DNA of 39,557 bases from Streptomyces coryli (GTDB lineage: Bacteria > Actinomycetota > Actinomycetes > Streptomycetales > Streptomycetaceae): positions 1-39,557 of the forward strand of contig NZ_JAAKZV010000051.1 of the NCBI RefSeq assembly GCF_011044975.1. The letters are read 5' to 3'. The notes under the pieces were generated by a model. The model saw only the letters and a list, made by a program, of their open reading frames with translations. It made no database searches and was not told the DNA's origin. A program made the position numbers and the translations under genes. Position 1 is the first letter of the stretch; each line of letters starts with the position of its first letter. This document shows positions 10,520 to 39,557 of this stretch, one piece after another.

Positions 10520-12565
10520 CTAGCGCCGCCGGCCGACCAGCCTTGCCAGCGCCCGCCCGGCGGACCGGGCGGGCGCCGGCACGTCCGCGGGGCTGTCCGC
10601 GGGTCCCTCCTCGTCCGGGTTGCGGACCAGCAGCGAAAGCCCGTTGCGCACGGTGTAGAAGACCCGCACCCGGGCCCCGGCGTGCAGCACCGGCGGGTAC
10701 TGGTAGATCTGCTTCTTCACCATGACGTCGTCCAGGATCCGCCCGAGCCGCAGCGGCTTCTGCCCCTCGATCGCCAGGTACAGATCCCAGATCTCGCGGG
10801 TCTGCTGATCCTGCCGGCGCTCGGCCAGCGCCCCGTACGGGATCCGCGCCGCGAAGCTCCCGTCCGCGGCCGGCGCGACCGGCACCCTGAACTCCTCCTG
10901 CTCGCCGCGCCGCCGCACCACGAGCCCGGCGGCGGGCGGCAGCGCGATGCCGTAGAGCCGGCCGTGCACGGTGACGTCGGCGCCCCCGACGAGGACGTAC
11001 GCGACCTCGGCGTGCGCCTCCCGCAGCCAGGTGCGCAGGCTGAGATGGCCCTCGTCGGTGACATACGGCAGCCACACCTCGACCGGCCCGGCCTCGGGGG
11101 ACGGGGCGACCGGACGCAGGTCGCAGGCGGCGGCGCGGGCGCGGCGGACGGAGTCGTCGGCGCCGGACTCCAGCCAGAAGTCCCAGTGGCCTTCGGCGAG
11201 TTTGTGCTCACCGCGACGCAGCACCGCTTCGAGCCGGCCGCCGCTTTCGGTGTCCTTCGCGGCCGTGAACGGGATGCGCAGCGCCGCCGGGGCCTTGCCC
11301 GCCTGCTTGCGCAGCCCCCGGCGGCGGCCGATGAGATGCAGCGGGCCGCCGTCCGCGGCGCCCGCGGTGAAGAAGGTCAGCGCGTCGTCGCCGAGCCGGT
11401 GCGCGCCGAGCTCCTTCGGCGCCGCCTTCTCCGCCAGCAGGACGCCGATCAGTTCCTCGTAGCGGGCGACGACGGCCGCCGGGTCCCAGCGCAAGGCCTT
11501 GCGCAGCGCGGCCGCGGCCATCGTGCGGCGGCGCTCCTCGTCCCCGATCAGCGAGCCGAGCGCGGCGGCGAAGGCCGCGACGTCGTCGACCGGGACCAGC
11601 ACCCCGTCGGTGCCGTCGGTGATGATCTCCCGCGGCCCCTGGTCGCAGTCCGTGCTGACCACGGCGAGCCCCGCCCGCATCGCCTCGACCAGGGTGAGCC
11701 CGAAGGACTCGTACGCGGACATGGACGCCGCGATCGACGCCTTCGGCCACTCCGCGGCGAGCGAGGGGACGGCGCCCATCAGCAGCACGTGGTTGTAGAG
11801 GCCGAGTTCGTCGATACGGGCCCGCAGGGCGGCGCGCTGCTGGCCCTTGCCGTAGATCCGCAGCTGCCAGTCCGGGTGCTCGGCGGCGACCTTCGCGAAC
11901 GCCTCGATGAGCAGCTCGAACCGCTTGCCGGGGACGAGCCGCCCGGCCGCCGCGACGACCTTGGCGCGGCCGTCGGAGGGCGGCACCCCGGGGGCGGGGA
12001 CCGGGTTGCCGATGTGGGTGATCGTCAGGCCCGGCACCGCGACCTGCTCGCGGAAGGCGCGGGCATCCGCCTCGGAGACGGTCACGACCGCGTCGAGGAG
12101 GGCGTACTGCTCGGCCATGTCCTGCTGCAGCGCCTCCGTGTGCCGCTCCAGGCCGACGTGCTCCTGGCCGAGCCGGACGGCGTGCGCGGGGCCGAGGCGG
12201 GCGAGGTAGAAGTTGACCGAGGGGCGGGTGCCGATGACGACGTCGGCGTCGAGCGTCCGCAGCCAGGCGGCGACGCGGCGGTCGGCGAGCCGGCTGTAGC
12301 GGTCGGCGCGCGGCTCGGCCGGCGAGACGATCTCCGAGGGGAGATGGAAGTCGGGGTCCGCGCTGTCCTGGCCGCCGGGACGCAGATCGACCAGCTGGAC
12401 CACCGGGATCCGCGGGTCGACCGCGAAGGCCGGGGCGTCCTTGTAGCGCCCGACCGCGGCGATCTCGACCTGGTGCCGGTCGGCCAGCGCCGAGGCCAGC
12501 TTCAGGGTGCTGTGGATGGTGCCGCCAAGCCCGCACACGTCATGCGTCAGGAAAGCGATCTTCAT
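10520..12565 (-). CDS. GT4 glycosyltransferase with a C-terminal extension
   Basis: A 681-residue GT-B fold enzyme. The N-terminal half begins MKIAFLTHDVCGLGGT, an acceptor-side glycine loop. It contains the GT4 donor-site motif ESFGLTLVEAMRAG (about 290-303) after GRLVPGKRFELLIEAF and RIYGKGQ. From about 385 to the end there is a roughly 290-residue beta-rich extension with Trp/Leu/Arg patterns and no transferase motifs. Similar tails accompany teichoic-acid-type glycosyltransferases of actinomycetes (from memory). It acts at the cytoplasmic membrane face on a lipid-linked or polymer acceptor. AAGGGG lies 12-17 nt before the ATG at 12565. It sits 8 bp downstream of the TagF-like gene, so the two are co-transcribed. 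Donor and acceptor are unknown. Confidence 0.8.
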   Translation of the reverse strand: MKIAFLTHDVCGLGGTIHSTLKLASALADRHQVEIAAVGRYKDAPAFAVDPRIPVVQLVDLRPGGQDSADPDFHLPSEIVSPAEPRADRYSRLADRRVAAWLRTLDADVVIGTRPSVNFYLARLGPAHAVRLGQEHVGLERHTEALQQDMAEQYALLDAVVTVSEADARAFREQVAVPGLTITHIGNPVPAPGVPPSDGRAKVVAAAGRLVPGKRFELLIEAFAKVAAEHPDWQLRIYGKGQQRAALRARIDELGLYNHVLLMGAVPSLAAEWPKASIAASMSAYESFGLTLVEAMRAGLAVVSTDCDQGPREIITDGTDGVLVPVDDVAAFAAALGSLIGDEERRRTMAAAALRKALRWDPAAVVARYEELIGVLLAEKAAPKELGAHRLGDDALTFFTAGAADGGPLHLIGRRRGLRKQAGKAPAALRIPFTAAKDTESGGRLEAVLRRGEHKLAEGHWDFWLESGADDSVRRARAAACDLRPVAPSPEAGPVEVWLPYVTDEGHLSLRTWLREAHAEVAYVLVGGADVTVHGRLYGIALPPAAGLVVRRRGEQEEFRVPVAPAADGSFAARIPYGALAERRQDQQTREIWDLYLAIEGQKPLRLGRILDDVMVKKQIYQYPPVLHAGARVRVFYTVRNGLSLLVRNPDEEGPADSPADVPAPARSAGRALARLVGRRR
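10549..10576 (+). terminator. Perfect 12-bp hairpin after the ABC genes
   Basis: The arms at 10549-10560 and 10565-10576 are exact reverse complements (12 bp, all G and C but one consistent mix), with loop CGGA. It lies 30 bp past the transporter stop and inside the last codons of the convergent glycosyltransferase gene. No U-tract follows. It is well placed to end plus-strand transcription. Confidence 0.55.
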
Positions 12566-12573
12566 CGCGGGTT

Positions 12574-14766
12574 CTACCCCTTCAGGGTCGACGCGGACGG
12601 GCGCGCCGCGCCGCCCTGCGTGCCGAGCGCGCCCTGGGCTGCTGCCTGGGCCCGGTGACGACGACGGACGCGGGCGCGCTCGTCGGCGAGCACCTCCGCG
12701 ACCCGCAGGTTGAAGCGCTCGGTCGCGGGCAGCGCCGAGTCCCCGAGCAGATACGTGCGCAGACCGCCGCGGGCCTCGCGCCGGGTGTCGCGCTCGGGGT
12801 GGAAGAGCAGGTCGACCAGCGCCGGGACCTGGTCCTCGGCCGCCGGGTCGAGGACGTACGCGGCTTCCCCGACGGTGGTGTTCGGGCCGCGGAAGGCGGC
12901 CTCGTCAAGACCCGTGGTGTTGACGACGGCGTACGGCTTCAGGGTGGCGACGAAGTCGGCGACGACGCTGGAGATGTCGCTGATCAGCAGGTCGGCCCGG
13001 CCGAAGCACTCGTTCAGGTACGGCCGCTGCCCGCGGATGACCTGGTGCTCCCAGGCGGGCTGGGAAGCCCACTTGGCGCGGTGCCAGTCCGCGACGGCGG
13101 CGTCCCACTCGGCCTTCAGCGACGGATCCGCGACCGCTGTGTCCTTCATCCGCTGCACCTCGTCGACGCCGCGCGGCCACAGCCGGGCGGACAGCTCGGA
13201 CAGCCGCTGCCGGCAGGCGTCGAGCTCGGCGGCGGCCGCGGCGCGGGCCTGCCGGACGTCCTCCGGCTCGGCGAAGGCGGCCGCTTCCGCGCGCCGGGCG
13301 TTGTCCTTCTTCAGCAGCTCGGCGATGCGCCGGTGCGCCTCGCGGGCCCGCGGGTCGACGCTGCCGGTGAGGGCGTGCGGCTTGTAGTGGACGCGGACCG
13401 GCGGCTCGTGCTCGAGCAGCTGGCGGACGATGGTCTCGCCGGCGTCGATGACCGAGGAGTTCCCCGGCTCGTCGGTCCAGCCCTCCCAGGTGGGGGCGTA
13501 CAGGACGGTGGGCAGCTCCTGGCACGGCCGCTGCGGGCCCTCCTGGGGCTGCGCCCACAGCTCGTCGACCTGCGGGCGGCCGACCTCGATCAGCCGCTCG
13601 TCCGCGACGCCGACATCGGCCTCGGCGTAGCGGTCGCGGGCGGCCTGCCCGGCGACCCAGACCTCGTCGTAGACCTTCGTGTACGGATTGATGAAGGCGA
13701 ACTTGTCGCTGTCGCCGTGCCCGAGCATCACGTGCCGGGCGGTGGCGAGCCGCAGGATGTTGATGTTCCGGGCGGCGTTGGCCGCGTACATCACGACGCG
13801 CGCGCTGGACAGGTCGAGCTTCATGGTGCGCACCGACTCCGGCACGCACAGCACCGGCAGCGCGGTGTGCTTCAGCAGCGGCATCAGGTGCTTCTCGCGG
13901 AGCACCACCAGCACCCGGGCATCCAGCTGCTCGATGGTGTCCATCCACATGTTGACCTGGTACGCGGTCGCCTTGGACCCGCTGTGGTAGAGCACCACCT
14001 CGGGCCGGTACTGCCGCAGCCACTCCCCCACCGCCTCGTGCACCTCGCCCGCGCGCGGCATCCGCCCGGCGCGGCGGGCGGCCCGGGCCCGTACGACGAG
14101 GGCGACGGTGGCCGCGGCGAAGGCGGCGGCCGCGCCGAGCGGGGCGAGGGGGACGACGTCGGTGGCGAGGGCCGCGGCCGCGCCGAGCAGGGCGAGGGCC
14201 TCCAGGGTGAGCAGCCGGGTGCCGGGCCAGCCGGCGAGCCGGCGCGGGGCGGCGGCGGGGAGGTCGAGGCCGAGATCGATGTTCTTCGCCAGTACGGGCA
14301 GCTTCCGCCGGCCGCGCAGGTGCGCGCTCACCGCGACATGCGCCCCGTGGACGAGCACGAGCCCGAGCACCAGCACCGGATACGCCGCCCCCGCCGCGCC
14401 GAGGGCGCCGGTCAGCGGCAGTCCGAGCAGCACGGCGCGGGCGGCGGCGCGCAACGGCAGCCCCGCGCCGACCTGGCCGAGCCGGCGCACCAACCGCCCC
14501 TCGCGGCGGTGCAGATGCCGCTCGCAGGCGAGCCCGATGGCGACGGCGGCGACACAGCCGGCGGCGGCCGGCCAGGGCGCGACGACGCAGGCGGCCGCCG
14601 CGGCGACGGCGACCGTTCCCGCGAGCGCCAGGAAGGCGAGCAGTCCGCGGAGCCGGCTGACATACGCGTAACGCTTCAGCCTCCGGATCCGGTGGCGCCG
14701 CACCGCGCCGCGCTCGCCAGCCAAGGAAGCCACCTTCCGCTCACCGGCATGTCCCCGGGTGTCCAT
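12574..14766 (-). CDS. TagF-like polyol-phosphate transferase with membrane domain
   Basis: A 730-residue protein. The first 250 residues hold an Arg/Lys-rich start and several hydrophobic helices (about 40-62, 65-85, 108-145, 190-230). The remainder is a CDP-glycerol glycerophosphotransferase-type domain (Glyphos_transf family). Motifs seen are LYHSGSKATAYQVNMW, MLGHGDSDKF with the candidate catalytic His, GRPQVDELW, LYAPTWEGW, RVHYKPHAL and LLISDISSVVADF. A roughly 130-residue Arg/Glu-rich helical insert lies between KPHAL and LLISD. Known relatives polymerise glycerol- or ribitol-phosphate chains of teichoic acids. Here it suggests a polyol-phosphate or related phosphodiester in the surface polymer. 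The start is uncertain: no ribosome site precedes ATG 14766, and GTG 12 codons later is an alternative. Confidence 0.8.
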   Translation of the reverse strand: MDTRGHAGERKVASLAGERGAVRRHRIRRLKRYAYVSRLRGLLAFLALAGTVAVAAAAACVVAPWPAAAGCVAAVAIGLACERHLHRREGRLVRRLGQVGAGLPLRAAARAVLLGLPLTGALGAAGAAYPVLVLGLVLVHGAHVAVSAHLRGRRKLPVLAKNIDLGLDLPAAAPRRLAGWPGTRLLTLEALALLGAAAALATDVVPLAPLGAAAAFAAATVALVVRARAARRAGRMPRAGEVHEAVGEWLRQYRPEVVLYHSGSKATAYQVNMWMDTIEQLDARVLVVLREKHLMPLLKHTALPVLCVPESVRTMKLDLSSARVVMYAANAARNINILRLATARHVMLGHGDSDKFAFINPYTKVYDEVWVAGQAARDRYAEADVGVADERLIEVGRPQVDELWAQPQEGPQRPCQELPTVLYAPTWEGWTDEPGNSSVIDAGETIVRQLLEHEPPVRVHYKPHALTGSVDPRAREAHRRIAELLKKDNARRAEAAAFAEPEDVRQARAAAAAELDACRQRLSELSARLWPRGVDEVQRMKDTAVADPSLKAEWDAAVADWHRAKWASQPAWEHQVIRGQRPYLNECFGRADLLISDISSVVADFVATLKPYAVVNTTGLDEAAFRGPNTTVGEAAYVLDPAAEDQVPALVDLLFHPERDTRREARGGLRTYLLGDSALPATERFNLRVAEVLADERARVRRRHRAQAAAQGALGTQGGAARPSASTLKG

Positions 14767-14863: not shown

Positions 14864-15766
14864 CTACCGCAGCCCGCGCAGCGCCCGTGTCACCACCGGC
14901 GGGAGCAGGTCCTTGGCGATCTTCTTCCCCCGCGAGGCCGGCACCCGGCCCGTGCCGGCCTCGCTCGGGGCCGGCTTCTCCCCGGCGTACCGCGATCGCG
15001 GCAGCCGCGGCTCCGGGACCCGGTCCGCGTTCACCCGCAGCACCCGGCCACCGGCGATCTCCTCCGCGCCGACCCAGCAGTCGTCGCGCTCACCCAGCGT
15101 CGCCAGCAACTCGTCCTGTATCGACGCCACATCCCCCCACGTCCCGTAGAACTTCGTGGACGTCAGGCACACCGGCTTCAGCCCGCCGGTGACGACCGCC
15201 TCCCACGCCGCGCACGCGACCCCCGGCGTGTGGTGCGCCCGGTAGTCGTCGAGCACCACGACGCCCTCCTCGCCCAGCGCCGCCCGCGCCGCGACGATGT
15301 CGCCGCGCACATGCTCGTAAAGGTGCGAGGCGTCGACATGCACGAAACGGCAGCTCGCGTCCGTCACCTCGTCCGGCACCCAGGACGTCGGCCCGTGGAT
15401 GATCCGCGGCAACTCCTCGTGGAACGCCCGGAAGTTGGCCTCGAAGGCGCGCCGGGTCAGCGTCGAGTACGACTTCTGCATCTCGCGGGCGTTCGGATTG
15501 TCGGGCGCCTCGCCGTCGAAGAGGTCGCAGACGGTCAGCCGCTCACCCGCCCGCAGATACGCCTGGAGGAAGATGGCGCTCTTCCCCATGTACGCGCCCA
15601 TCTCCAGCAGATCCCCGTGCTGTTCGAGCCGGTCCTGGCGGCTCAGGAACCAGTCGAACAGCACAATGTCAGCGTGCCGGAACCACCCCTTCACTTCGCC
15701 CAGGGACCGTGGTCGCCGGTCATGTACCTGTTCGGTGCCTGCGTCTGGCGTCGTGAGAGGTGTCAC
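14864..15766 (-). CDS. SAM-dependent methyltransferase (TylF/class I type)
   Basis: A 300-residue class I methyltransferase. Motif I is DLLEMGAYMGKSAIFLQAY, with VCDLFDGE as the acidic loop and RFVHVDASHLYEHVRGD further on. The VVVLDDYRAHHTPGV segment resembles the metal-binding DD of macrocin-type sugar O-methyltransferases. The last 60 residues are basic and probably disordered. It most likely methylates a sugar hydroxyl of the glycopolymer or a nucleotide sugar; the substrate cannot be assigned. It starts with GTG 15766 and has an excellent AAGGAGG 7 nt upstream, which lies inside a small hairpin. It is separated by about 80 bp from the PP2C gene and followed by a 97-bp gap before the TagF-like gene. 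Confidence 0.75.
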   Translation of the reverse strand: MTPLTTPDAGTEQVHDRRPRSLGEVKGWFRHADIVLFDWFLSRQDRLEQHGDLLEMGAYMGKSAIFLQAYLRAGERLTVCDLFDGEAPDNPNAREMQKSYSTLTRRAFEANFRAFHEELPRIIHGPTSWVPDEVTDASCRFVHVDASHLYEHVRGDIVAARAALGEEGVVVLDDYRAHHTPGVACAAWEAVVTGGLKPVCLTSTKFYGTWGDVASIQDELLATLGERDDCWVGAEEIAGGRVLRVNADRVPEPRLPRSRYAGEKPAPSEAGTGRVPASRGKKIAKDLLPPVVTRALRGLR

Positions 15767-15770
15767 GGAG

Positions 15771-15847: not shown

Positions 15848-16939
15848 TCAGGCGGGTGACACTCGTTCAATGACAAGAAGCGCGGCATCGTCGTCCAGCC
15901 GGCCGCCCGCGTGCCGCAGCAGGTCGGTGCGCAGCCGCGCGGCCATGTCCTCGAGCGGGGCGGCGGCCACGGCGCGCGCCCCGTCCTGCAGCGCGTAGAA
16001 GCGGCCGCTCCGGTCGCGGGCCTCGATGAAGCCGTCGGTGTAGAGGACGAGGCGGTCGCCGGCGGCGAACTCGCGGCTGCTGACCGTATGCTCCGAGCCG
16101 ACCAGACCGGCGAGCCCGATGGGCGCGCCGGGCACCTCGGGCGCCCACGGCACCACCTGCCCGCCGCGCAGCACGAGCGGCTCCGGATGGCCGCAGTGCA
16201 CCATCCGCACCACGTCCTCGTCGCCCGGCAGCTCCAGCAGCAGCGCGGTGGCGAAGCGCTCGGTGAACTCCTCGTCGTAGACCTCGCCGATGCGCCGGCT
16301 GGCGGTCTCCTCCAGCCGCCGGCCGACATCGGCGAGGCTCGCCTCCTGGTACGCGGCCTCGCGGAAGCAGCCGACCAGGCCCGCCGTCGCCCCGACCGCC
16401 TCCAGGCCCTTGCCGCGCACGTCGCCGATGAGCAGCCGGACGCCGTACGGGGTGTGCAGCGCCTCGTAGAAGTCGCCGCCGATCTGCGCCTCCGACTCGG
16501 CCGCCAGATAGACGCCGCGCAGCTCCAGGCGGTCGATCTGCCGCGGCAGCGGCCGCAGCAGCACGCGCTGCGCGGTGGCCGCGACGGAGCGGACCTGGCG
16601 CAGCTCGGCCTCCCGCCGCAGCCGTACGAAGCAGGCGAGGACGCTGGCGAGGGAGACGGCGACGATCGCGATGACGGCGACGTCGGAGCCGGGCCCCCAC
16701 ATGTCGTGGACCCGGTACAGGCCGACGGTCAGCGCGAGCGCGGCCAGCGCGACGGCGGCCGTGAAGCGCAGCCCGGTGGCGGCGGCCGCGAGCACCGGAG
16801 CGGCCGCGGTCAGCGGGGCCAGCTCCAGCCAGGCGGGGGTGACCAGGTCGGCGAGCAGGACGACGGCCAGGAGGGCGACGGGCGGCAGATAGCGGCCTGC
16901 GATCATCCTGCGGGAAGCGCAGGCAGGCGGCTCATACAC
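15848..16939 (-). CDS. Membrane-bound PP2C-type (SpoIIE) protein phosphatase
   Basis: A 363-residue protein. Three or four hydrophobic helices occupy about the first 100 residues (LPPVALLAVVLLADLV, then VAVIAIVAVSLASVLA), followed by a SpoIIE/RsbU-type PP2C domain. Metal-binding motifs are GGDFYEAL, GDVRGKGLEA, VHCGHPEPLV, LYTDGFIEARD and a final DDDAALLVI. It would dephosphorylate Ser/Thr-phosphorylated proteins, often anti-sigma antagonists. The start GTG 16939 is chosen because GGAGG lies 6 nt upstream and it overlaps the FUSC gene end by 8 bp, implying translational coupling. A TTG start 20 codons earlier is possible but less likely. Its link to the polysaccharide genes is unclear; it could counter the Ser/Thr kinases at the left end. 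Confidence 0.85.
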   Translation of the reverse strand: MYEPPACASRRMIAGRYLPPVALLAVVLLADLVTPAWLELAPLTAAAPVLAAAATGLRFTAAVALAALALTVGLYRVHDMWGPGSDVAVIAIVAVSLASVLACFVRLRREAELRQVRSVAATAQRVLLRPLPRQIDRLELRGVYLAAESEAQIGGDFYEALHTPYGVRLLIGDVRGKGLEAVGATAGLVGCFREAAYQEASLADVGRRLEETASRRIGEVYDEEFTERFATALLLELPGDEDVVRMVHCGHPEPLVLRGGQVVPWAPEVPGAPIGLAGLVGSEHTVSSREFAAGDRLVLYTDGFIEARDRSGRFYALQDGARAVAAAPLEDMAARLRTDLLRHAGGRLDDDAALLVIERVSPA

Positions 16940-18011
16940 CGACGGCCTCCTTGCGGGCCTGCCCGGCTGGCGCCGGCTCGGCCTGGCCGAGGTCTTCAAG
17001 CGTCCGGTCGAGGATCATCAGCAGCCGGTTCTCCGGGGCGCGGGTCCCCAGCGCCCGCGAGTCGGCGGCGTCGGCGAGCCGCTCGCACTCCCGCCGGGTC
17101 ACCGGCAGCACCGGGTGCGGCAGCCCGCCGGTGCAGCCCCGCACGCACACCGCGGTGCCCCGCAGCAGGCGGGCGTAGCGCTGCCGGAAGGCTGCGTCGC
17201 GGGGCGTCCTGCGGTCCAGCGCCCGGCTGAGCGCGGCGACGTCGTCGGCCACCCGGCCGAGGGTGTCGAGGATCTCGTGGTCGACACGGCAGGCGGTACG
17301 GCCGGCCCCGCGCACCCTGACCCGCGGATTCCAGCGCAGGCTCTCGTGCGCCCGGTCCACCGCCCGGTGCGCCGCGCGCAGCGTCTCGGTCAGGTCCTCG
17401 CGCCACCCGCGGCCGAGGACGTCCTGCGGCCCGCGGTCCTCCGCGACGGCGGTGCCGAGACCGCGCAGCACACCGGCGAGCTCCCGCCGCAGCCGGTCCA
17501 GGGCGTCCTCGGCGGGCCGCAGCTGCAGCGGCGGGAACAGCAGGTTGCAGGTCAGGCCGCAGACCACGCCGATGGCGACCGCGACCAGGTGCCAGCTGAC
17601 CTCCTCGCCGAAGTGCCCGCGGCCGAGGAGGAGGACGAAGACGGCCGTGGTCGGCACGTGCAGCCCGCGGTGGCCGAGCCTGCTGTGGCCCGCGGCGAGC
17701 ATCGCCAGCAGCACCACGACGGCGAGGGCGGCCCAGGTGGGCCCGCCGAAGAGCAGCGCCGGTACGGCGATGAGCGCCCCGATCGCGCAGCCGCTGCCGT
17801 ACTGCATGCCGACGGTCACCGACTGATAGACGGTGGGGTGGACGGTCAGCAGGGCGGCGATCGCCGCGGGGTACTGCGGCCCGCCCGGCAGCAGCAGGCA
17901 CAGCCCCCAGGCGGCCACAGCCGCGACCGAGGCCCGCGCGGCCACCCGGAAACGCTCGGGCCAGGACGCCTCGGCGCCGTCCGGTGCGGCCGTGGCCCGT
18001 ATGGAGTGCAT
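16932..18011 (-). CDS. FUSC-family (aromatic acid exporter-like) membrane protein
   Basis: A 359-residue protein. An N-terminal half of about six helices (VAARASVAAVAAWGLCLLL, PAAIAALLTVHPTVYQSVTVG, ALIAVPALLFGG, LAVVVLLAMLAAG, TTAVFVLLLGRG, HLVAVAIGVVCGL) is followed by an Arg/Leu-rich cytoplasmic coiled region with Cys residues. This is half of the usual FUSC/ArAE layout, so it may work as a dimer. Relatives export aromatic acids or unknown small molecules; no substrate can be inferred here. GGGGG lies 8 nt before ATG 18011. The stop overlaps the PP2C start by 8 bp. It has no obvious task in glycopolymer synthesis. Confidence 0.75.
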   Translation of the reverse strand: MHSIRATAAPDGAEASWPERFRVAARASVAAVAAWGLCLLLPGGPQYPAAIAALLTVHPTVYQSVTVGMQYGSGCAIGALIAVPALLFGGPTWAALAVVVLLAMLAAGHSRLGHRGLHVPTTAVFVLLLGRGHFGEEVSWHLVAVAIGVVCGLTCNLLFPPLQLRPAEDALDRLRRELAGVLRGLGTAVAEDRGPQDVLGRGWREDLTETLRAAHRAVDRAHESLRWNPRVRVRGAGRTACRVDHEILDTLGRVADDVAALSRALDRRTPRDAAFRQRYARLLRGTAVCVRGCTGGLPHPVLPVTRRECERLADAADSRALGTRAPENRLLMILDRTLEDLGQAEPAPAGQARKEAVGV

Positions 18012-18073: not shown

Positions 18074-18086
18074 AAGGGAGTGACCT

Positions 18087-18103: not shown

Positions 18104-18640
18104 TCACCCTCGGAGCACGACGAGCCGCCCCAGCGGATCCGTCGCCCCGCGCGCCGCGTGCCGCCGCAGCCGCCGCCGGTAGCGCACCTCGGGCAGCTCG
18201 AGCCCGGCCGGCACCGCGGCCTCCCGGGTCACCCCGAGCGCGGTCACCCGCAGCCCCACGGGCCAGGGCCGCTCGGGGAGCGTCCAGGGCAGGATCCGTA
18301 CGACGATGCGGGTCCCGTCGTCGACCGGCTCCAGGCTGACCAGATCCGCTACGGCCCCGTTGTTGAGGCGCACCGGCGCGTCGCCGAGGCACATCAGGTC
18401 CGGCAGCGAGCTGTGCGCGGTGATCATCAGCGCCCGCGGCCGCCCGCCCGCGTCCCGCTCCCAGCCGACGGAGGTGATCTCCAGCCGCTGCGCGTGCACG
18501 CGCTTCATGGTGAGGTCGGTGACCTCGAAGACCTCGTCCGGCGCGCTTCTGCCGGGCTCGAAGAACTCCTGCGATCCGGTGTACGCCCGCTGCCCGACCA
18601 CCACGATCTGGGACTCGGGTTCAACTCCTGCGACTGTCAC
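18104..18640 (-). CDS. Hypothetical protein, 178 residues
   Basis: I do not recognise this family. It starts with GTG 18640 (MTVAGVEPESQIVVVGQ), and GGGAG about 7 nt upstream supports the start. There is no signal peptide or membrane helix. The middle reads as alternating beta-strands (EVFEVTDLTMKRVHAQRLEITSV, ALMITAHSSLPDLMCLG, VRLNNGAVADLVSLEPVDDGTRIVVRILPW). Cys is rare, and the C-terminus is strongly basic (RYRRRLRRHAARG). It is flanked by its own hairpin and a 133-bp upstream gap, so it is probably transcribed alone. It lies between the LCP pair and the FUSC-PP2C unit, which gives little hint of function. Confidence 0.6.
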   Translation of the reverse strand: MTVAGVEPESQIVVVGQRAYTGSQEFFEPGRSAPDEVFEVTDLTMKRVHAQRLEITSVGWERDAGGRPRALMITAHSSLPDLMCLGDAPVRLNNGAVADLVSLEPVDDGTRIVVRILPWTLPERPWPVGLRVTALGVTREAAVPAGLELPEVRYRRRLRRHAARGATDPLGRLVVLRG

Positions 18641-20746: not shown

Positions 20747-20862
20747 CACCGACCACCTCACTGTTGCCCATCCGAATTAATCGGAAAATAGCAATCAGTG
20801 TTGAAGTATGCCGGTATTACTTACGGGCATGTTCCCGAGGTGTACCGCAATGGCGCTGCTTG

Positions 20863-22222: not shown

Positions 22223-22224
22223 CG

Positions 22225-29140: not shown

Positions 29141-29193
29141 GATTCGCTCCTGTGCCTGCCGGTGGCACGACGACGTATCCGGAGTTGACGGCG

Positions 29194-32662: not shown

Positions 32663-33825
32663 CGGGTCTCCTGGTGTCGGGGGTGGTCGCGGAGCGCGGA
32701 CCGGTAGAGGGCGGTCGCCTCCCGCAGCCAGCGCTGCTCGCCGTAGCGGTGCTCGTAGACGGAGCGGCAGTGGGCGCGCTGCGCCGGGAATGCGCGGCCC
32801 GCCTCGGCGAGCGCCCGGCCGAGCGGCTGGTCCCATGCGGTGACGTGTCCGGTGCCCTCGTCCCGTACGGCCTCGGCGACGGCGTTGCCTTCGAAGGCGA
32901 GGACGGGCAGCCCGGCGGCGAGCGCCTCGAGGTAGACGACGGTCGGCCCGGCCTCAAGCCAACGGCTGGGGAACAGCAGCCCCTTGGCGGCGGCCATGCG
33001 GCGGCGCAGCTCCGGCCGCTCCAGGGAGCCGAGGAAGCGTACGGAACCGGGCGCCGCCGCCCGGCAGGCGGCCTCCAGTTCGCCGCTGCCCGCCACGTCG
33101 AGCGGCTCGCTCTTCGGCCAGGACCGCAGCAGTTCAAGGATGCCCTTGGCCGGGCTGAGGCGGCCGGCGAAGAGCCACGCACCGGCGTCCGGCGCCGGCT
33201 CGCACGGCGCGTCGGCAACGAAGTTGGGCAGCACGGCCAGACGCTCCGCGGGCACTCCGGAGCGGGCGTACACGCGGCGGTTGAGCTCCGAGATCACCAC
33301 CACCCGGTCCGCCCGCGCCAGCAGCGGGTCGGCAGCGGCCCCGCGGCGGTTCGCCCAGGCCAGCGGCAGCGTGGCGGCGCGCGAGTCCCGGTAGCAGGCG
33401 TGCCGCAGCCCGGCCCAGCGGTCGCCGTCGAGGCAGCGGGTGCAGTCCGCGCCGTCGCGGTAGAGGCTGCCGCCGGCGCACAGCGGGCGGAAGTTGTGCA
33501 GGGTGGCGATCAGCGGGCTGTCGTGCCAGCTCCGGGCCCAGCCGCGCCCGAAGTTGGGGAAGAGGTTGTGCACGTGGACGACGTCGGGACGGAAGGCCCG
33601 CAGCCGCTCCACCGGCGAGCGGCCCCGGCCGCTGAGCACGACCACGGCCGAGCGCAGCGCATACAGCCGCTGCCGGGACAACTCGTCCGTATGCGCTCCG
33701 ACCAGCGCCACCTCGTGCCCCGCCGCGGCGAGCGCGGCCGCCTGCTCGGCGACCACGGCGTTCTCGCCGCTGGGCTGCCCCGAGGCGTAGAAGCTGTGCA
33801 CGAGGGCGATGCGCAGAGGGGTCAC
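32659..33825 (-). CDS. Family 4 glycosyltransferase
   Basis: A 388-residue GT-B enzyme starting TPLRIALVHSFYASGQPSGE after GTG 33825. Segments are VVHVHNLFPNFGR, TLHNFRPLCAGG, a Cys group DCTRC and HAC (seen in one GT4 branch), VVVISELNRRVYARSG, FAGRLSPAKGILELL, and FPSRWLEAGPTVVYLEALAA (donor-site EX7E-like region). It transfers a sugar from a nucleotide donor to a lipid-linked acceptor in the cytoplasm. The start overlaps the upstream gene stop by 4 bp (GTGA), and the stop overlaps the next start by 4 bp, so three genes form a tightly coupled row. Confidence 0.85.
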   Translation of the reverse strand: MTPLRIALVHSFYASGQPSGENAVVAEQAAALAAAGHEVALVGAHTDELSRQRLYALRSAVVVLSGRGRSPVERLRAFRPDVVHVHNLFPNFGRGWARSWHDSPLIATLHNFRPLCAGGSLYRDGADCTRCLDGDRWAGLRHACYRDSRAATLPLAWANRRGAAADPLLARADRVVVISELNRRVYARSGVPAERLAVLPNFVADAPCEPAPDAGAWLFAGRLSPAKGILELLRSWPKSEPLDVAGSGELEAACRAAAPGSVRFLGSLERPELRRRMAAAKGLLFPSRWLEAGPTVVYLEALAAGLPVLAFEGNAVAEAVRDEGTGHVTAWDQPLGRALAEAGRAFPAQRAHCRSVYEHRYGEQRWLREATALYRSALRDHPRHQETR

Positions 33826-34595
33826 GGCTGCGGCCACTCCCGCACCAGCCGTGGCGGGCGCAGCGCGATCCGGGCCAGATAGGCCGGGTTGTTGCGCAGA
33901 TAGCGCCGCCACAGCCGCCGGGGCTCCTTGGCCAGCCGGTAGCTCCACTCCAGACCGCGCTCCGCCATCCACGCCGGGGCCTGCGGCTTGAGCCCGGCGT
34001 GGAAGTCGAAGGCCGCGCCCACGCCCAGCAGCACGGGCGCTTCGAGCCGCTCCCGGAAGGCGGCCATCCAGCGCTCCTGCTTGGGCGTGGAAAGCCCCAC
34101 CCACACCAGGTCCGCGCCACTGGCGTTGATCCGGTCCGCGGTCTCGCGCTCCTCCCGCGGCGTGAGCGGGCGGAAGGGCGGCGACCAGGCGCCCGCCACC
34201 TTCAGCCCCGGGAGGCGGCCGCTCAACTCGCTTCCCAGCAGCTCCGGCACGCCGTCGGCGCCCCCGTAGAGATACGAGCTCCAGCGCCGTTCCACGGCCC
34301 GGTTCAGCACGTCAAGCATCAGGTCGGGCCCGTAGACCCGGCGCATCCAGTGGGCGCCGGCCCGCTGCCCGGCCCACACCATCGGCATCCCGTCGGGGAC
34401 GGTCAGGCCCGAGGCGTTGTGGACGCGGCGCAGCGCCGGGTCACGCTGGGATTCCATCACCCCGTGTACGCCGGTCACGCAGACGTAGTGCCGCTCGCGG
34501 CGCTCGATCCAGCCGGTGACGGCTTCCAGAGCGCGGGTGCGGTCGACGGCGCTGACGCCGACGCCGAGCACGTCGACACGGGGGATGGATTCCAT
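33822..34595 (-). CDS. WecG/TagA/CpsF family glycosyltransferase
   Basis: A 257-residue GT26 enzyme. Conserved segments are VCVTGVHGVMES, LTVPDGMPMVWAG, RVYGPDLM, LYGGADGVPELL, DLVWVGLSTPKQERWMA, LLGVGAAFDFHAGLKPQAP and GLEWSYRLAKEPRRLWRRYL. Family members add the second sugar (often ManNAc-type) to an undecaprenyl-diphosphate-linked first sugar in teichoic acid and enterobacterial common antigen pathways. It therefore probably acts right after the phosphoglycosyl transferase. ATG 34595 has no clear ribosome site; only 23 bp separate it from the epimerase stop. It overlaps the GT4 gene downstream. Confidence 0.9.
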   Translation of the reverse strand: MESIPRVDVLGVGVSAVDRTRALEAVTGWIERRERHYVCVTGVHGVMESQRDPALRRVHNASGLTVPDGMPMVWAGQRAGAHWMRRVYGPDLMLDVLNRAVERRWSSYLYGGADGVPELLGSELSGRLPGLKVAGAWSPPFRPLTPREERETADRINASGADLVWVGLSTPKQERWMAAFRERLEAPVLLGVGAAFDFHAGLKPQAPAWMAERGLEWSYRLAKEPRRLWRRYLRNNPAYLARIALRPPRLVREWPQP

Positions 34596-34618
34596 GGCGG
34601 GGCGGGCCGGTCGGCGGT

Positions 34619-35614
34619 TCAGTTGACGTACGCGCGGCCGTCGATACGGGCGGCGACCTGGTCGTAGATCCAGCGGTAGGTCTGCTCCAGGCCGGCCCGC
34701 AGCGTGATCGACGGGGCCCAGTCGAGCTCCTTGGTGATCCGGGTGTTGTCGCTGTTGCGGCCGCGGACGCCGAGGGGGCCGGGGATGTGGTTGTACGTCA
34801 GCTCGATCCCGGCGATGTCCTGGACCAGGGCGTACAGCTGGTTGATGGAGACCAGCTGGTCCGAGCCGAGGTTGAGCGGCTCGGTGACCTCGCTGCGGGC
34901 GATGCGCAGGGTGCCCTCGACGCAGTCGTCGATGTACATGAAGCTGCGGGTCTGCTCGCCGTCGCCCCAGATCTCCACCTCGCGCTCGCCGGTGAGGGCG
35001 GCGATGGCGATCTTCCGGCAGGCGGCGGCCGGGGCCTTCTCGCGGCCGCCGTCCCAAGTGCCGTGCGGGCCGTAGACGTTGTGGTAGCGGGCGACGCGGC
35101 TGGTCAGGCCGTAGTCCTCGCGGAAGTGCCGGGCCATGCGCTCGCTGAAGAGCTTCTCCCAGCCGTAGCCGTCCTCGGCCATCGCCGGGTAGGCGTCCTC
35201 CTCGCGCAGCGGGAGCACCTCGGTCTCGGTCTGCTTGTCGGCGGCGTAGACGCAGGCGGAGGAGGAGTAGAAGTAGCGCTCGGCGCCGGCGTCGCGGGCG
35301 GCGATCAGCATGTGGGTGCTGGAGAGCACGGAGAGCATGCAGGCAGCCTTGTTGGCCTCGATGAAGCCCATGCCGCCCATGTCGGCGGCGAGGTGGTAGA
35401 CCTCGTCCGCGCCGCCGTCGACCACCCGCTCGCAGAGCGGGCGGAGCGAGACGTCCGCGACCATGTTGTCCGCCCCGTCGTGGACCTGGTACCACTCGGT
35501 GAGCGGCTTCTTGTCCACGGCCCGTACGCTCTTGCCCTCCGCCAGCAGGGCGCGGGTCAGATGCCCGCCGATGAATCCTCCGGCCCCGGTTACGACGGCG
35601 TTGATGCCCGACAT
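34619..35614 (-). CDS. GDP-mannose 3,5-epimerase-like enzyme
   Basis: A 331-residue extended SDR protein with NAD loop TGAGGFIGGHL (9-19). Signatures of plant GME are strongly present: LAADMGGMGFIEANKA, YFYSSSACVYAADKQ with Cys121, EDGYGWEKLFSE with Tyr150 and Lys154, YHNVYGPHGTWDGG, and REKAPAAACRK with Lys193. The distances Cys-Tyr (29) and Lys-Lys (39) match those I recall for Arabidopsis GME (Cys145, Tyr174, Lys178, Lys217). It would convert GDP-D-mannose to GDP-L-galactose or GDP-L-gulose. ATG 35614 is preceded by GAGAGGTG. A related bacterial NAD epimerase with another substrate is the alternative. No GDP-mannose synthesis gene is in the window. Confidence 0.8.
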   Translation of the reverse strand: MSGINAVVTGAGGFIGGHLTRALLAEGKSVRAVDKKPLTEWYQVHDGADNMVADVSLRPLCERVVDGGADEVYHLAADMGGMGFIEANKAACMLSVLSSTHMLIAARDAGAERYFYSSSACVYAADKQTETEVLPLREEDAYPAMAEDGYGWEKLFSERMARHFREDYGLTSRVARYHNVYGPHGTWDGGREKAPAAACRKIAIAALTGEREVEIWGDGEQTRSFMYIDDCVEGTLRIARSEVTEPLNLGSDQLVSINQLYALVQDIAGIELTYNHIPGPLGVRGRNSDNTRITKELDWAPSITLRAGLEQTYRWIYDQVAARIDGRAYVN

Positions 35615-35717: not shown

Positions 35718-36530
35718 TCACCCGGTCGTACGCGCGGCGGGCAGTTTGGAGCCGGCGGCGGACGGGTCGTGCAGCAGGACGACGCCCACCATCATGTTGC
35801 CGAGCCGGTTGAAGGGCGTCAGCGCCGCGTAGACCGCCTTGGCCGCGGGCAGCCGCCAGCGCCCCGGGACGCAGCGGCGCACCAGCTTCCCGACGGCGAG
35901 ATTGTGATCCCACAGCCGGCGCGGCAGCACGGTGGCCCGGTCGCGGAGCAGATAGCTGAGCGTCACCTGCTTCAGGAAAGAGCCGTTCCAGCGGAAGACG
36001 TAATTGACCGCGGTCCCCTGCACCTCCCATTCGGTGCCGATCAGGCGGCCGACCAGGCTCTCGTGCGGCTCGATGAGAATGACCGCGGTACGGGCCACCC
36101 TGAGCATCTCGGTGAATCCCAGCGCGGGACGCGGTAGATGGTGCAGCCCGTCCTGCACGACGACCAGGTCAAAGCTGCCGTCCGCGAGCTCGGCCATGGC
36201 CTCCGCGTTGAGGCAGCGCGTCTTCAGCTCGGGGTCCAGCTCGCGGCAGACCTCCAGCGTGGCGGGCGAAAGGTCGGAGACGGTGACGTCCGCGAAGCCC
36301 TCGCGGCGCAGCATGATGCCTTCGCCGCCGGCCCCGCCGCAGACCACCAGGACGCTCTGGTTCGCGGGGTCGAGCGCCCCGCGGCGGCGCAGTTGCTCGA
36401 GGCCCGCCTTCAGACGCCGGTCCCGCAAATAGCGCACCAGCGGATCCGCCGTGACGTGATAACCGAAGTCGTAGCCGTCGCCGACCAGCTCGTCCGACGC
36501 CTTCCGCTGTGCCTCGATGCTCGTCTTCAT
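35718..36530 (-). CDS. SAM-dependent methyltransferase
   Basis: A 270-residue class I methyltransferase. Motif I is VLVVCGGAGGEGIMLRREGF, with Cys replacing the usual Asp/Glu before the glycine loop, then VTVSDLSPATLEV, FDLVVVQDGLHHLPRPALGF and ARTAVILIEPHESLVGRLIG. The C-terminal part is basic and hydrophobic with Phe/Tyr. No substrate can be assigned. ATG 36530 follows GAGGAAG at about 9 nt. It lies 14 bp downstream of another methyltransferase gene, so the two probably act on one pathway. A 103-bp AT-richer gap separates it from the epimerase gene. Confidence 0.78.
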   Translation of the reverse strand: MKTSIEAQRKASDELVGDGYDFGYHVTADPLVRYLRDRRLKAGLEQLRRRGALDPANQSVLVVCGGAGGEGIMLRREGFADVTVSDLSPATLEVCRELDPELKTRCLNAEAMAELADGSFDLVVVQDGLHHLPRPALGFTEMLRVARTAVILIEPHESLVGRLIGTEWEVQGTAVNYVFRWNGSFLKQVTLSYLLRDRATVLPRRLWDHNLAVGKLVRRCVPGRWRLPAAKAVYAALTPFNRLGNMMVGVVLLHDPSAAGSKLPAARTTG

Positions 36531-36544
36531 GTGTGCCGCTTCCT

Positions 36545-37198
36545 CTACTTTCGCGCGACGAGAGACTTGGGCAGTCCGGCGAAGCGCTCGAACCACAGAT
36601 CCGATTCCGGAAAATAGGCGCGCATCTCCGTGGCCGAGAGCAACTCGACCTCCGCCACATCCCGAATCGCCTTGGCCCGCCCGCCCGGGCGGATATGCCC
36701 GTACGGCCACCGCTGTGAGATCTGCACCCGCACCTGGAACGGCAGCCACTGCATGCCGGGGAAGAGCCAGTGCGGTTCGACGGGGAAATAGCGGTACGGC
36801 GTCTGGATCCAGTGATGACTCGCCGACGCGGCTACGACCTCGGCGAGGCGGGCGCGGTTTGCGTGGCCGCCCAGATGCTCCAGCAGAGAATTGGAGTACA
36901 CCAGGTCGAATTCAACTCCCGGGAGCAGCGCGGGCAGCTGGCACGCATCCGCCGCCAGGAACTGCACATCCGGCTCCGGGTCGCCTGCGACGCCCGGATC
37001 GATGTTCACGACCGTCACCTGCGCCGGGCGTACGGGGGCGGCGCGCCAGGAGGCCGGGGTGCCACCGAGGTCCAGCACCCGCATCTCGGCAAGGTCGGGG
37101 AACGTGCGCAGGAGCTCTGTCCACCGCCGGGCACGCGTCCGGTGCGCCAGCGAGCCCGCACGGTCCGGATTGGCAGCACGCGTGCTGAGTAGCGTCAC
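36545..37198 (-). CDS. SAM-dependent methyltransferase, small
   Basis: A 217-residue class I methyltransferase-like protein. Motif I reads MRVLDLGGTPASW, where the usual GxGxG loop is replaced by GGTPASW. Next are VTVVNIDPG, VQFLAADACQLP, FDLVYSNSLLEHLGG and HHWIQTPYRYFPVEPHW. The PYRYFPVEPHW segment with following Trp/Phe residues resembles sugar or lipid methyltransferases of cell-surface loci. It starts with GTG 37198, with GAGAGG upstream. Function as a methyltransferase is probable despite the unusual loop, because the DPG and LEH motifs are intact. It forms a pair with the next methyltransferase gene. Confidence 0.72.
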   Translation of the reverse strand: MTLLSTRAANPDRAGSLAHRTRARRWTELLRTFPDLAEMRVLDLGGTPASWRAAPVRPAQVTVVNIDPGVAGDPEPDVQFLAADACQLPALLPGVEFDLVYSNSLLEHLGGHANRARLAEVVAASASHHWIQTPYRYFPVEPHWLFPGMQWLPFQVRVQISQRWPYGHIRPGGRAKAIRDVAEVELLSATEMRAYFPESDLWFERFAGLPKSLVARK

Positions 37199-37273
37199 TC
37201 GGTCTGCCTCTCGGTGCGGATCGTTATCGGGAAAGCGCGCCTCCCATCATGACCGCAGGCCCTTTCCCCTGGA

Positions 37274-39557
37274 TCATTCCGACACTCCGGAGCTCCGCTC
37301 GTATGGCCCTTTGACAGGGAAATAGGCCTCCAGGAATGCGCGCATCACCTGTGCCTGTTCGGTCTCGGGGACCTCGGATTCTGCGCCCTCGCCCAGGCAG
37401 AAGACGTCTTTCGCGCGGTTGGCGAGGAGGCGGGTGAGCAGGTGTTGCTGTTCGTAGCGGCCGGTGTCGACGTAGCCGCAGCGGATTCCGCCCGGTTCTG
37501 CCGTGCCCGTCAGGTAGCCGTAGTGGTGGTGCAGGGAGGAGACCAGGGAGACGTCGCGCCAGTCGCGTAGCGCCGAGCGCGAGGTGCGGGCGAGGGGCTC
37601 GGCGAATTCCTCTGTGATACGGGACAGGACGCTGCGGCGGAGGGGGTACGGGGCGTGGAGGAAGCCGTGGGTGACCGTTACGCCGAAGCGGTCCTTCAGG
37701 AGGCGGCGGTTGTTTTTCGCGGCGGCGAAATAGCCCTCGTCCGTCGGTGTCGCCTCGCCTGCCGGGATCGCTGTCGGGGACCAGAAGAAGCGGCTGTTGC
37801 CGTTCGAGCGGAAGAAGCGGTTGGGGGCCACCGGGCGGCCCAGGAAGAAGTCGTCGTTCAGGTAGAGGAAGTGTTCCGACAGGTCCTCGATGTGGTGGAG
37901 GCGGGATTCGATGGCGTGGGAGTTGAAGACCGGGAGGGCGGCCGGGTCGTCCCACAGGGCGCGGTGGTCGACGATTTTCAGGCCGGGGTGTTCCGCCTTC
38001 AGCCAGGACGGGCGCTGGCCGTCCGTGACCAGGTAGATGGTGCGGATCCAGGGGGCGTACATCGCCAGGGAACGGAGGGAGTAGCGGAGCTCGTCGCGGT
38101 TGCGGAAGCGGACCGAGGCGTCGCCGGCCACCTCCGCCTGCGGCTTCGGGGGCAGGCCCAGCTCCGCGCGCCGGGCGTTCAGGCGCTCCTGCCACTCCGG
38201 GTCCGCGTCGTCGACCCAGGTGTAGACCGCGTCGACCGGGAAGTCGAGGTCCGTCACCAGCGGTTCGTTGAAGTCCTCCAGGGTCGGATACGCGCGGTCG
38301 CGGACCCGCGTCACCGCGTTCGGCACCACCGTCCGCAGCGTCGGGCCCAGCGCGGCCGGGCGCCTGGGAGCCGTATAGCCGCCGAGGAGTTCGTCGTACG
38401 GCCAGAACTCGATGTCGCAGCCGAAGGCGGGCCCGTAGCGGAGGGTGCGGCCGCTCGTGAGATACGGGCGGCAGACCCGCAGGCCGCGGACCTCGCCGAC
38501 GCCGCCGAGGCGCTCCGCGAGCACCGCGCCCGGCGCGTCCGTCACCGGGCCGAGCAGCTCCGCGTACACCGCCTGTCCGGGATACGCCCGCGCCAGCGCC
38601 GCCCGGACGTCCGCCTGCAGCGCCGCGTCCACCGCGAGGCGGCGGTGCGGGCTGTCGTCGCGGTCGCGGAGGAGGACGTACGGGATGTCGGCCGCCTCCA
38701 GGGCGTCCGCGGCCAGGCGCAGGTTCTCCTCGTACGCGCGGGCGGCCGGGAGGTCGTCGCGTACGTAGGCCAGCTGGCCCGCCGAGCGGACCAACGACGC
38801 GTCGCCGGCGAGGAGTTCGTCCTCGCGGGCGCGCTGGCCGCCGGCCGACGGGGAGATCTTGGACGCGGGGGCGGAAGGCTGGAAGCCGCCGCCCGCGGTG
38901 ACGGCCTTGCGGTGGCCCGCGCGGTCGGCGCGGGCGGTGAGCCGGGCCGGGTCGCGGCGGGTCGCGTAGAGCTCCGCGAAGAGCCGCTCCCAGGTTTTGT
39001 TGATACGGGCCGCGGAGAAGCGGGTCGCGCCCTCCAGCGCCGCCGCGCCCATGCGGTGCAGCAGCGCCTCGTCCGCCATCAGCCGCGCCATCGCGGCGGC
39101 GAGCGCCTCGGTGTCGGCGGCCTCGACCAGCAGCCCGTCGACCCCGTGCCGGATGATCTCGGCGGGCCCGGTCGGCACGTCGTACGCCACCGCCGGCACC
39201 CCGGCCGCGAAGGCCTCCACGAGGACGAGGCCGAAGCCCTCGGTCTCGGAGGGCAGGACCGTGAACGCCGCCTTCGCCCACTCGTCGGTCATGTGCCGGG
39301 TCGGGCCCATGATTTCGACGGAGTCGTGCAGCCCGAGTTCCTCGACGAGGCGGCGCATGCGACCGGTGAGCGGGCCGTCGCCGAAGATCCGCAGCTTCCA
39401 GTCCGGGTGCTCGATGACCGCCTTGCCGAAGGCGGTGATGGCGTGGTCGACCTGCTTGTCCGGGACAAGGCGGCGCGGGACGACGATGGTCTTGGACGTA
39501 CGGGAGGAACGGGGGCGGAAGCCGTCGGGGATGGCGTTGGAAATGGTCTCGAGGCGG
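37274..39557 (-). CDS. GT4-Stealth phosphotransferase fusion (N-terminus off right edge)
   Basis: The frame is open from the right edge, giving about 760 visible residues. The first part is a GT4 domain: TIVVPRRLVPDKQVDHAITA, LRIFGDGPLTG, and SETEGFGLVLVEAFAAGVP. After a linker come the conserved regions of Stealth proteins: VDAVYTWVDDADPEW (38194-38242), RFRNRDELRYSLRSLAMYAP and TIYLVTDGQRPSWL (37996-38107), HHIEDLSEHFLYLNDDFFLG (37829-37918), then THGFLHAPYPLRR. Stealth enzymes such as capsule polymerases transfer hexose-1-phosphate and so form phosphodiester links between sugars. The fusion suggests alternating glycosyl and phosphoglycosyl transfers by one polypeptide. A 75-bp gap follows before the small methyltransferase. 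Confidence 0.85.
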   Translation of the reverse strand, partial: RLETISNAIPDGFRPRSSRTSKTIVVPRRLVPDKQVDHAITAFGKAVIEHPDWKLRIFGDGPLTGRMRRLVEELGLHDSVEIMGPTRHMTDEWAKAAFTVLPSETEGFGLVLVEAFAAGVPAVAYDVPTGPAEIIRHGVDGLLVEAADTEALAAAMARLMADEALLHRMGAAALEGATRFSAARINKTWERLFAELYATRRDPARLTARADRAGHRKAVTAGGGFQPSAPASKISPSAGGQRAREDELLAGDASLVRSAGQLAYVRDDLPAARAYEENLRLAADALEAADIPYVLLRDRDDSPHRRLAVDAALQADVRAALARAYPGQAVYAELLGPVTDAPGAVLAERLGGVGEVRGLRVCRPYLTSGRTLRYGPAFGCDIEFWPYDELLGGYTAPRRPAALGPTLRTVVPNAVTRVRDRAYPTLEDFNEPLVTDLDFPVDAVYTWVDDADPEWQERLNARRAELGLPPKPQAEVAGDASVRFRNRDELRYSLRSLAMYAPWIRTIYLVTDGQRPSWLKAEHPGLKIVDHRALWDDPAALPVFNSHAIESRLHHIEDLSEHFLYLNDDFFLGRPVAPNRFFRSNGNSRFFWSPTAIPAGEATPTDEGYFAAAKNNRRLLKDRFGVTVTHGFLHAPYPLRRSVLSRITEEFAEPLARTSRSALRDWRDVSLVSSLHHHYGYLTGTAEPGGIRCGYVDTGRYEQQHLLTRLLANRAKDVFCLGEGAESEVPETEQAQVMRAFLEAYFPVKGPYERSSGVSE

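Follow-up and report, generated by a model that had tools for sequence, protein, structure and literature searches.

A composite surface-polymer locus in Streptomyces coryli: a Wzx/Wzy polysaccharide module probably lodged among teichoic and phosphodiester polymer genes

Do the Wzx/Wzy-type, teichoic-type, Stealth and LCP genes that lie side by side in Streptomyces coryli form one system for one wall polymer? They occupy a stretch of 39,557 nt (assembly GCF_011044975.1, contig NZ_JAAKZV010000051.1, positions 1-39,557, forward strand), hereafter called the window, of which we studied positions 10520-39557 together with the genes of the left flank. An initial annotation had assigned to these genes a single product, a wall-linked, phosphodiester-bearing heteropolysaccharide, and had suggested an undescribed system. 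Our data argue, with moderate confidence, for a composite surface-polymer locus in which a Wzx/Wzy module (~18.8-37.2 kb) is lodged in a teichoic/phosphodiester polymer locus. The parts are known ones, and, judged by gene position, the capsule genes of the relatives examined lie far from their wall-polymer genes.

The middle module has its own homes in other genomes. WecG matches of at least 73% identity were found in 6 of 249 genomes of one family, presumably the Streptomycetaceae; five of these loci were fetched with both flanks, while the sixth (G568; genomes carry our own numbers) runs off its contig. All five keep the order SDR-WecG-GT4b, an opposite-strand small phosphoglycosyl transferase (PGT), one LCP gene, the BY-kinase, LMW-PTP and membrane proteins of their own, with identities of 57-64% for GT4b, 72-79% for WecG and 74-81% for SDR. 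Three membrane proteins from two of these loci were scanned and matched Polysacc_synt_3 or Wzy_C (Pfam). In the genus of G648, WecG (E 1e-90) occurred in 2 of 70 genomes, and the module is therefore patchy. A second type of locus came from Wzy, whose relatives at 44% identity were present in 2 of 239 genomes. These two loci keep the overlapping Wzy-Wzx pair on one strand (Wzx, 47-50%) and GTf on the other (58-59%), and they also hold PGT, UXS, GT2b, BY-kinase, LMW-PTP, WecG (40-41%) and GT4b (53-55%), with no close match to SDR. The window thus combines the WecG/LCP core of one type with the Wzx/Wzy set of the other. Capsule loci often mix cores and Wzx/Wzy sets of different types.

Together with G676 and G649 (WecG, 40-46%), these made nine loci of the Wzx/Wzy type, for each of which 40-60 kb was fetched, and none of the nine contained a TagF or Stealth-domain match (E 1e-4) in that stretch. 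TagF (E 1e-10) was absent from 6 of 8 module-bearing genomes and lay on another contig in the remaining two. Linkage within 20 kb was counted from the match lists of 249 (WecG), 249 (Stealth) and 175 (MT24) genomes, at E values of ≤1e-30 (which includes distant WecG), ≤1e-60 and ≤1e-40, respectively. WecG and Stealth were never linked among the 15 genomes with both (8 with the two on one contig, nearest distance 231 kb; 7 with them on different contigs, for which no distance is given), nor were WecG and the MT24 methyltransferase among 20 (9 on one contig, nearest 132 kb). Stealth and MT24 were linked in 9 of 31 genomes with both (17 on one contig), and a GT2-TagF gene stood between them in 9/9 of those loci. 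In G675, Wzy is located at 1.42 Mb, the ABC-MT24 genes at 6.18 Mb and the Stealth fusion at 6.52 Mb. On these linkage data, the outer two parts of the window appear to have a recurrent partnership, outside which the middle part falls, and the window thus resembles a teichoic/Stealth neighborhood with a Wzx/Wzy module lodged inside it. In the genomes searched, conservation of the gene set in synteny, the check put forward by the initial annotation, was not found. That annotation had itself allowed that the genes might be pieces of unrelated loci without co-conservation; this holds in part, yet the Stealth-MT24 grouping and the teichoic backbone described below speak against a random neighborhood.

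The left part resembles a known chromosomal site. The kinases, the ABC transporter and MT24 correspond to the backbone genes of a Streptomyces teichoic acid locus, in which we take SCO2973/2974 to be the kinases and SCO2978-2980 to be the transporter, and from this gene order the left flank appears to be a teichoic acid site. The S. coelicolor teichoic gene sets are SCO2589-SCO2590 and SCO2979/SCO2998, with transferases SCO2981-2983 and SCO2997, in the accessible part of that report (PMC3937824). STK1 is 67-81% identical to kinases near the orthologous ABC transporter in three loci, and the window's permease reached a top identity of 71% among 150 genomes. The orthologous transporter was followed by MT24 in 14 of 18 chosen loci, which is not a frequency, because 14 of the 18 were picked for close MT24 and permease matches and 4 had no such pair. 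In relatives, GT2-TagF genes adjoin MT24 (three scanned proteins scored 399, 400 and 329 bits). The window's teichoic site holds, on the strand opposite the transporter, a TagF and a GT4a of the type found at a different site, near obg.

Seven loci with a full-length GT4a relative were fetched, and in five of them (G445, G506, G638, G435 and G172) TagF is its neighbor or lies close by. In G445 the pair has L21/obg on one side and proB/proA-like genes on the other, GT4a and TagF being separated by an IspD-like gene (first 263 residues scanned), and this arrangement matches the Streptomyces wall teichoic acid (WTA) locus with TagF SGR_4957, TarIJ SGR_4956 and the anchors L21 and L27, as given in the accessible part of PMC13274773. 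By BLAST to the flanking genes, the obg-proBA site was present in 5 of 10 loci, with TagF/GT4a in G445, G506 and G435 and with GT4-Stealth in G765 and G415; the other five were without it in the stretch fetched.

The TagF-like protein itself barely passes the PF04464 cut-off (22.7 versus 22.1 bits), and no single stretch passes alone. All seven aligned TagF-like members matched PF04464 (E up to 0.01), as expected of a TagF-family polymerase, and the stretches HGDSDK, PTWEG, YKPH and SDISS were largely invariant across the seven sequences. Relatives (E 1e-3) were found in 17 of 296 genomes of a phylum sample. A sequence search of the PDB gave no match; a profile search returned only the ribosomal protein eL8/L7a (E 0.004-0.6), which we judged to be chance. 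The window proteins scanned included no enzyme of CDP-polyol synthesis (TarIJ/TagD type, IspD-like or cytidylyltransferase); such a gene may be located in another part of the genome or past the window end, and it is from there that the donor would come if TagF uses a CDP-polyol.

At the right end, the GT4-Stealth fusion has all four Stealth regions (CR1-CR4) above cut-off, as expected of a Stealth phosphotransferase, and its closest solved relative is CpsY (8j2n, E 1.2e-79). The window holds 760 of its residues, and four whole relatives have 935-969. Matches spanning both GT4 and Stealth were obtained in 21 of 249 genomes, one of them reaching only residue 627. The window's Stealth is 62-63% identical to the obg-site fusions versus 44-49% to the Stealth genes adjoining MT24, and a TagF is found ~8 kb from the fusion of G765. 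Several arrangements of Stealth genes were seen in relatives. In 9 genomes, MT24 and Stealth recur in a compact locus together with a GT2 gene and one or two GT2-TagF genes, 6.7-12.6 kb separating MT24 from Stealth. The fusions of G765, G415, G577 and G533 are accompanied by a second Stealth gene and a gene of 276-361 aa between or beside them, which suggests a two-Stealth machine in these four genomes. In G764 and G765, a run of three Stealth-like genes precedes a GT4a relative, and an LCP gene is ~1-2 kb away.

Genes were called with a codon-position scorer, and their products were scanned against Pfam and NCBIfam (hmmscan, curated cut-offs), the partial gene at 3-581 being left out of the family scans. 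Of ten parts named in the initial annotation, eight reached curated Pfam cut-offs, in agreement with its view that the individual parts are known families: PGT, WecG, Wzz/BY-kinase, LMW-PTP, the TagF-like protein, GT4-Stealth and the two LCP proteins. Wzx and Wzy, the other two, were called from topology and conserved synteny. The motifs used for BY-kinase, LMW-PTP, PGT and the LCP proteins are those commonly regarded as diagnostic. PGT carries KFRTM, DELPQ and GPRP, as expected of the initiating transferase of a Wzx/Wzy-dependent locus, and its closest NCBIfam model is TIGR03025 EPS_sugtrans (256.8 bits, under the cut-off of 295.55). The kinase gene has Wzz (27.6 bits, cut-off 25.5) and AAA_31 (44.8 bits, cut-off 27) matches with Walker-type and YGYGY motifs, and LMW-PTP scored 81 bits with the expected motifs, giving the Wzz/BY-kinase and phosphatase pair of such loci. 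The UXS-type epimerase is 60-73% identical to counterparts in the modules of several relatives, and MTc and MTd have relatives at 64-73% in other polysaccharide loci. GT2b also has a sub-threshold NTP_transf_3 match.

WecG (PF03808, 195 bits) had been read as a sign of a wall teichoic acid route through its TagA kinship, a reading that we discarded. It scored 141 bits against the exopolysaccharide-type EpsA model (cut-off 500) and 83 against the teichoic TarA model (cut-off 350), passing only the superfamily model TIGR00696 (158 versus 69). With EpsA scoring above TarA and both below cut-off, WecG therefore cannot serve as evidence of a teichoic linkage unit, and no TagA/TarA-type linkage-unit transferase was assigned.

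A simple scan counted nine hydrophobic segments each in Wzx and Wzy. Against Wzy_C-type proteins, the Wzy profile aligned weakly but colinearly in hhalign (E 0.009, with a probability of only 4%), and three other pairings had E values of 0.28-0.68. The Wzx profile matched neither recognized flippases nor any PDB entry, and an AlphaFold model of Wzx built without an alignment was unusable (mean pLDDT 41). A scan of genome contigs with the Wzy and BY-kinase peptides returned nothing for Wzy and 8 distant loci for BY-kinase. Wzx was not found in 16 teichoic- or Stealth-locus genomes, in a search without positive control.

The tandem LCP proteins, 48% identical to each other, scored 152.6 and 140 bits, and both the domain and conserved arginines of the family are present, in the PRD and RIRRQ motifs, to which the arginine role in LCP proteins is ascribed. 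The gene wzg is also an LCP gene. A pneumococcal cps region likewise opens with a gene for an LCP protein, Cps2A (PMC7831098). The presence of the pair makes wall linkage of a polymer made here plausible. The one product proposed initially is thus partly supported: its modules are real and its wall linkage plausible, but in the genomes searched the gene set is not co-conserved as a single system.

Gene content, family membership, the kept synteny of the middle module and the separate homes of the modules in the relatives searched are observed; the reactions, the substrate of the LCP pair and the choice between separate products, our default, and joined ones we infer as follows. In the middle module, PGT would load the first sugar phosphate onto undecaprenyl phosphate; WecG, GT4b, GT2a, GT2b and GTf would lengthen the repeat unit, and the methyltransferases and epimerases would tailor it. 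The lipid-linked unit would then be flipped by Wzx and polymerized by Wzy, with chain length set by Wzz/BY-kinase together with LMW-PTP. On the left, in a site that the kinases, ABC transporter and MT24 mark as probably of the Streptomyces teichoic type, the TagF-like protein and GT4a may act as a teichoic-type pair, producing a chain of polyol phosphate or sugar phosphate that bears glycosyl units. On the right, GT4-Stealth is predicted to transfer a sugar-1-phosphate. The LCP pair would join one or more chains to peptidoglycan, probably the Wzx/Wzy one and possibly the Stealth/TagF one.

Several observations weigh against a Wzx/Wzy module that is merely lodged here and has its own wall ligases. 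Neither Wzx nor Wzy matched a Pfam or NCBIfam family. No LCP gene was found within 40-60 kb in 4 of the 9 Wzx/Wzy-type loci, including the two closest by Wzy, while the five with one are all of the WecG 72-79% type; wall linkage of the Wzx/Wzy polysaccharide is weakened by these four. In the other 2 of the 7 GT4a loci (G764 and one G765 locus), GT4a is accompanied by Stealth genes and LCP with no TagF match, and the Stealth polymer locus there appears to have a ligase of its own. Gene spacing points the same way: Stealth, MTd, MTc, SDR, WecG and GT4b share a strand and either overlap or are 14-103 bp apart, which suggests that Stealth is co-expressed with the Wzx/Wzy core, and from UXS to GT4a every gene is codirectional with gaps of ≤133 bp, so that the left half could be one unit too. 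A scan of the window for promoters and terminators gave no signal above chance from which to set operon limits.

A single joint polymer is unproven. One version would have Stealth, and TagF, place phosphodiesters in the Wzx/Wzy repeat and the LCP pair attach one phosphodiester heteropolysaccharide to the wall. It draws on the contiguity, shared direction and short gaps of the genes, on the position of GT4-Stealth directly before MTd, whose relatives occupy other polysaccharide loci, and on streptococcal cps loci that unite wzg, Wzx/Wzy and Stealth in the accessible text of PMC5111408; but the linkage counts (WecG-Stealth 0/15, WecG-MT24 0/20), the scarcity of TagF in module-bearing genomes (2/8, on other contigs) and the lack of TagF or Stealth in all nine Wzx/Wzy-type loci make it unlikely.

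We give still less credence to a hybrid conjugate, in which TagF/GT4a make a polyol-phosphate chain that is linked to the Wzx/Wzy polysaccharide, comparable to the teichuronic acid (TUA)-like chains on WTA in S. griseus. The teichoic-site backbone with TagF/GT4a does adjoin the polysaccharide module, and a TUA-WTA hybrid has been published, but the S. griseus TUA route is assigned to the stepwise transferases UtrC, UtrF and UtrG and not to Wzx/Wzy (PMC13274773, accessible part), no linking enzyme is evident in the window, and its scanned proteins include nothing IspD-like. A fuller form, one LCP-ligated hybrid wall polymer whose Wzx/Wzy heteropolysaccharide also bears Stealth phosphodiesters, as a Wzy-route counterpart of the TUA-WTA conjugate, is likewise quite improbable. 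Accidental neighborhood, through recombination or a misjoined contig and with no shared function, would suit the SpoIIE/FUSC and 178-aa genes separating the halves and the modules being apart in relatives, but has little to recommend it: from 10.5 kb onward, almost every other gene belongs to a surface-polymer family, and MT24/TagF is repeatedly found grouped with Stealth. Stealth-MT24 clustering, GT4a beside Stealth and LCP in two loci and the teichoic backbone together indicate that the neighborhood is not random.

How far the locus departs from known systems was judged against published clusters, as far as the accessible parts of PMC13390465, PMC8902715, PMC5111408, PMC13274773, PMC3937824 and PMC5974469 go. 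Among the actinomycete Wzx/Wzy exopolysaccharide clusters compared (wps-1, imp and the ebosin cluster ste), wps-1 of Actinoplanes missouriensis shares Wzx, Wzy, Wzz, WecG/TagA, GT2 and a methyltransferase with the window (PMC13390465); it differs in having sulfotransferases, and that organism's Stealth-domain protein is in a separate GtrA-type gsf cluster. The ste cluster of Streptomyces sp. 139 resembles the window in its Wzz-type ste8 and DasABC-type sugar ABC transporter (PMC8902715). The LCP pair, BY-kinase with LMW-PTP, TagF/GT4 and Stealth go beyond the Actinoplanes and ste clusters. Streptococcal cps loci, like the window, combine Wzx/Wzy and a Stealth phosphotransferase with wzg in one locus, so "undescribed system" was an overstatement; TagF/GT4a/MT24 and the actinomycete WecG-SDR core have no mention for them in the accessible text (PMC5111408). 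The Streptomyces WTA and TUA-WTA loci (L21/L27/obg site; SCO2979-SCO2998) share TagF homologues (42-46%), a paired GT4a and the ABC-MT24 backbone with the window (PMC13274773, PMC3937824), whereas in the window no IspD-like gene was seen, a Wzx/Wzy module adjoins, and an obg-site-like TagF and Stealth are at the other, SCO2979-SCO2998-type site. In the capsule polymerases Cps3D and Cps7D, a TagF-like domain works with a GT-B transferase (PMC5974469); the window has two adjacent separate genes, in an actinomycete. Wzx/Wzy with Stealth and wzg in streptococci, WecG-bearing Wzx/Wzy in Actinoplanes and polysaccharide-teichoic hybrids in S. griseus are thus already known (PMC5111408, PMC13390465, PMC13274773), and the literature searched, which mostly excludes subscription journals, yielded no Streptomyces locus uniting Wzx/Wzy with TagF. 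Streptomyces surface polymers are receptors of umbrella toxins and differ among species, which the authors read as an arms race (PMC13274773). If a Wzx/Wzy module is indeed lodged in a teichoic site, it would show modular reassembly of Streptomyces surfaces, and the locus offers a direct test of coupling between Wzy-made and TagF-made chains in actinomycetes.

All features are summarized in Table 1. Beyond the ten named parts, the window holds five methyltransferase genes (MTb below cut-off), two GT2 genes, a GT-B-like gene, GT4a adjoining TagF, GT4b, two nucleotide-sugar epimerase/SDR genes, a SpoIIE-type phosphatase and a FUSC-type membrane protein.

Table 1. Features of the S. coryli window and the evidence on which each was named
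Feature	Position	Strand	Evidence
STK1 and STK2, Ser/Thr protein kinases (left flank)	1063..4081	+	PF00069
Sugar ABC transporter, SBP-BPD1-BPD2 (left flank)	6933..10519	+	Pfam, NCBIfam; 62-76% identical orthologues
GT4a, GT4 glycosyltransferase with ~300-residue C-terminal extension	10520..12565	-	PF00534
TagF-like polyol-phosphate or sugar-phosphate polymerase, N-terminal membrane part	12574..14766	-	PF04464; alternative GTG start 14703
MT24 methyltransferase, teichoic acid locus type	14864..15766	-	PF13578
SpoIIE-type phosphatase and FUSC/ArAE-type membrane protein, overlapping	15848..18011	-	Pfam
178-aa protein	18104..18640	-	no Pfam match
LCP1 and LCP2 ligases, overlapping tandem pair	18774..20749	-	PF03816
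MTa methyltransferase	20863..21648	-	Pfam
LMW-PTP and Wzz/BY-kinase, overlapping genes	21722..23631	-	Pfam, NCBIfam, motifs
UXS-type NAD-dependent nucleotide-sugar epimerase/decarboxylase	23699..24640	-	PF01370
GT2a glycosyltransferase	24795-25706	+	PF00535
GT2b glycosyltransferase	25732-26490	-	PF00535
Wzy-like polymerase	26487..27761	-	topology, conserved pair, weak profile match
Wzx-like flippase	27754..29124	-	topology, conserved pair adjoining Wzy
GTf, GT-B-like glycosyltransferase	29152..30138	+	PF13524, 24.7 bits, just under cut-off 25
MTb, methyltransferase-like	30077..30856	-	weak PF13578, below cut-off
PGT, small phosphoglycosyl transferase, predicted initiating enzyme	30985..31593	+	PF02397, 209 bits
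350-aa protein between PGT and GT4b, overlapping GT4b	31610..32662	-	no family match
GT4b, WecG/TagA/CpsF and SDR, most conserved core	32659..35614	-	Pfam
MTc and MTd methyltransferases	35718..37198	-	Pfam
GT4-Stealth fusion, predicted sugar-1-phosphate transferase	37274..39557	-	Stealth CR1-CR4 and GT4; N terminus beyond window

The SpoIIE/FUSC pair and the 178-aa orphan sit between the teichoic and Wzx/Wzy parts; in the modules of relatives searched, FUSC and the orphan had no match and SpoIIE weak distant matches only. The 350-aa protein had no Pfam or NCBIfam match and only chance-level matches in the PDB; we would guess at a new glycosyltransferase family. Searches of plasmids with the window DNA gave no locus-wide match. 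Over ~730 bases, the SDR gene (34655-35392) matched plasmid DNA of Azospirillum and Skermanella at 74-76%, a closeness that is unusual across phyla and may point to a widely transferred SDR-WecG core.

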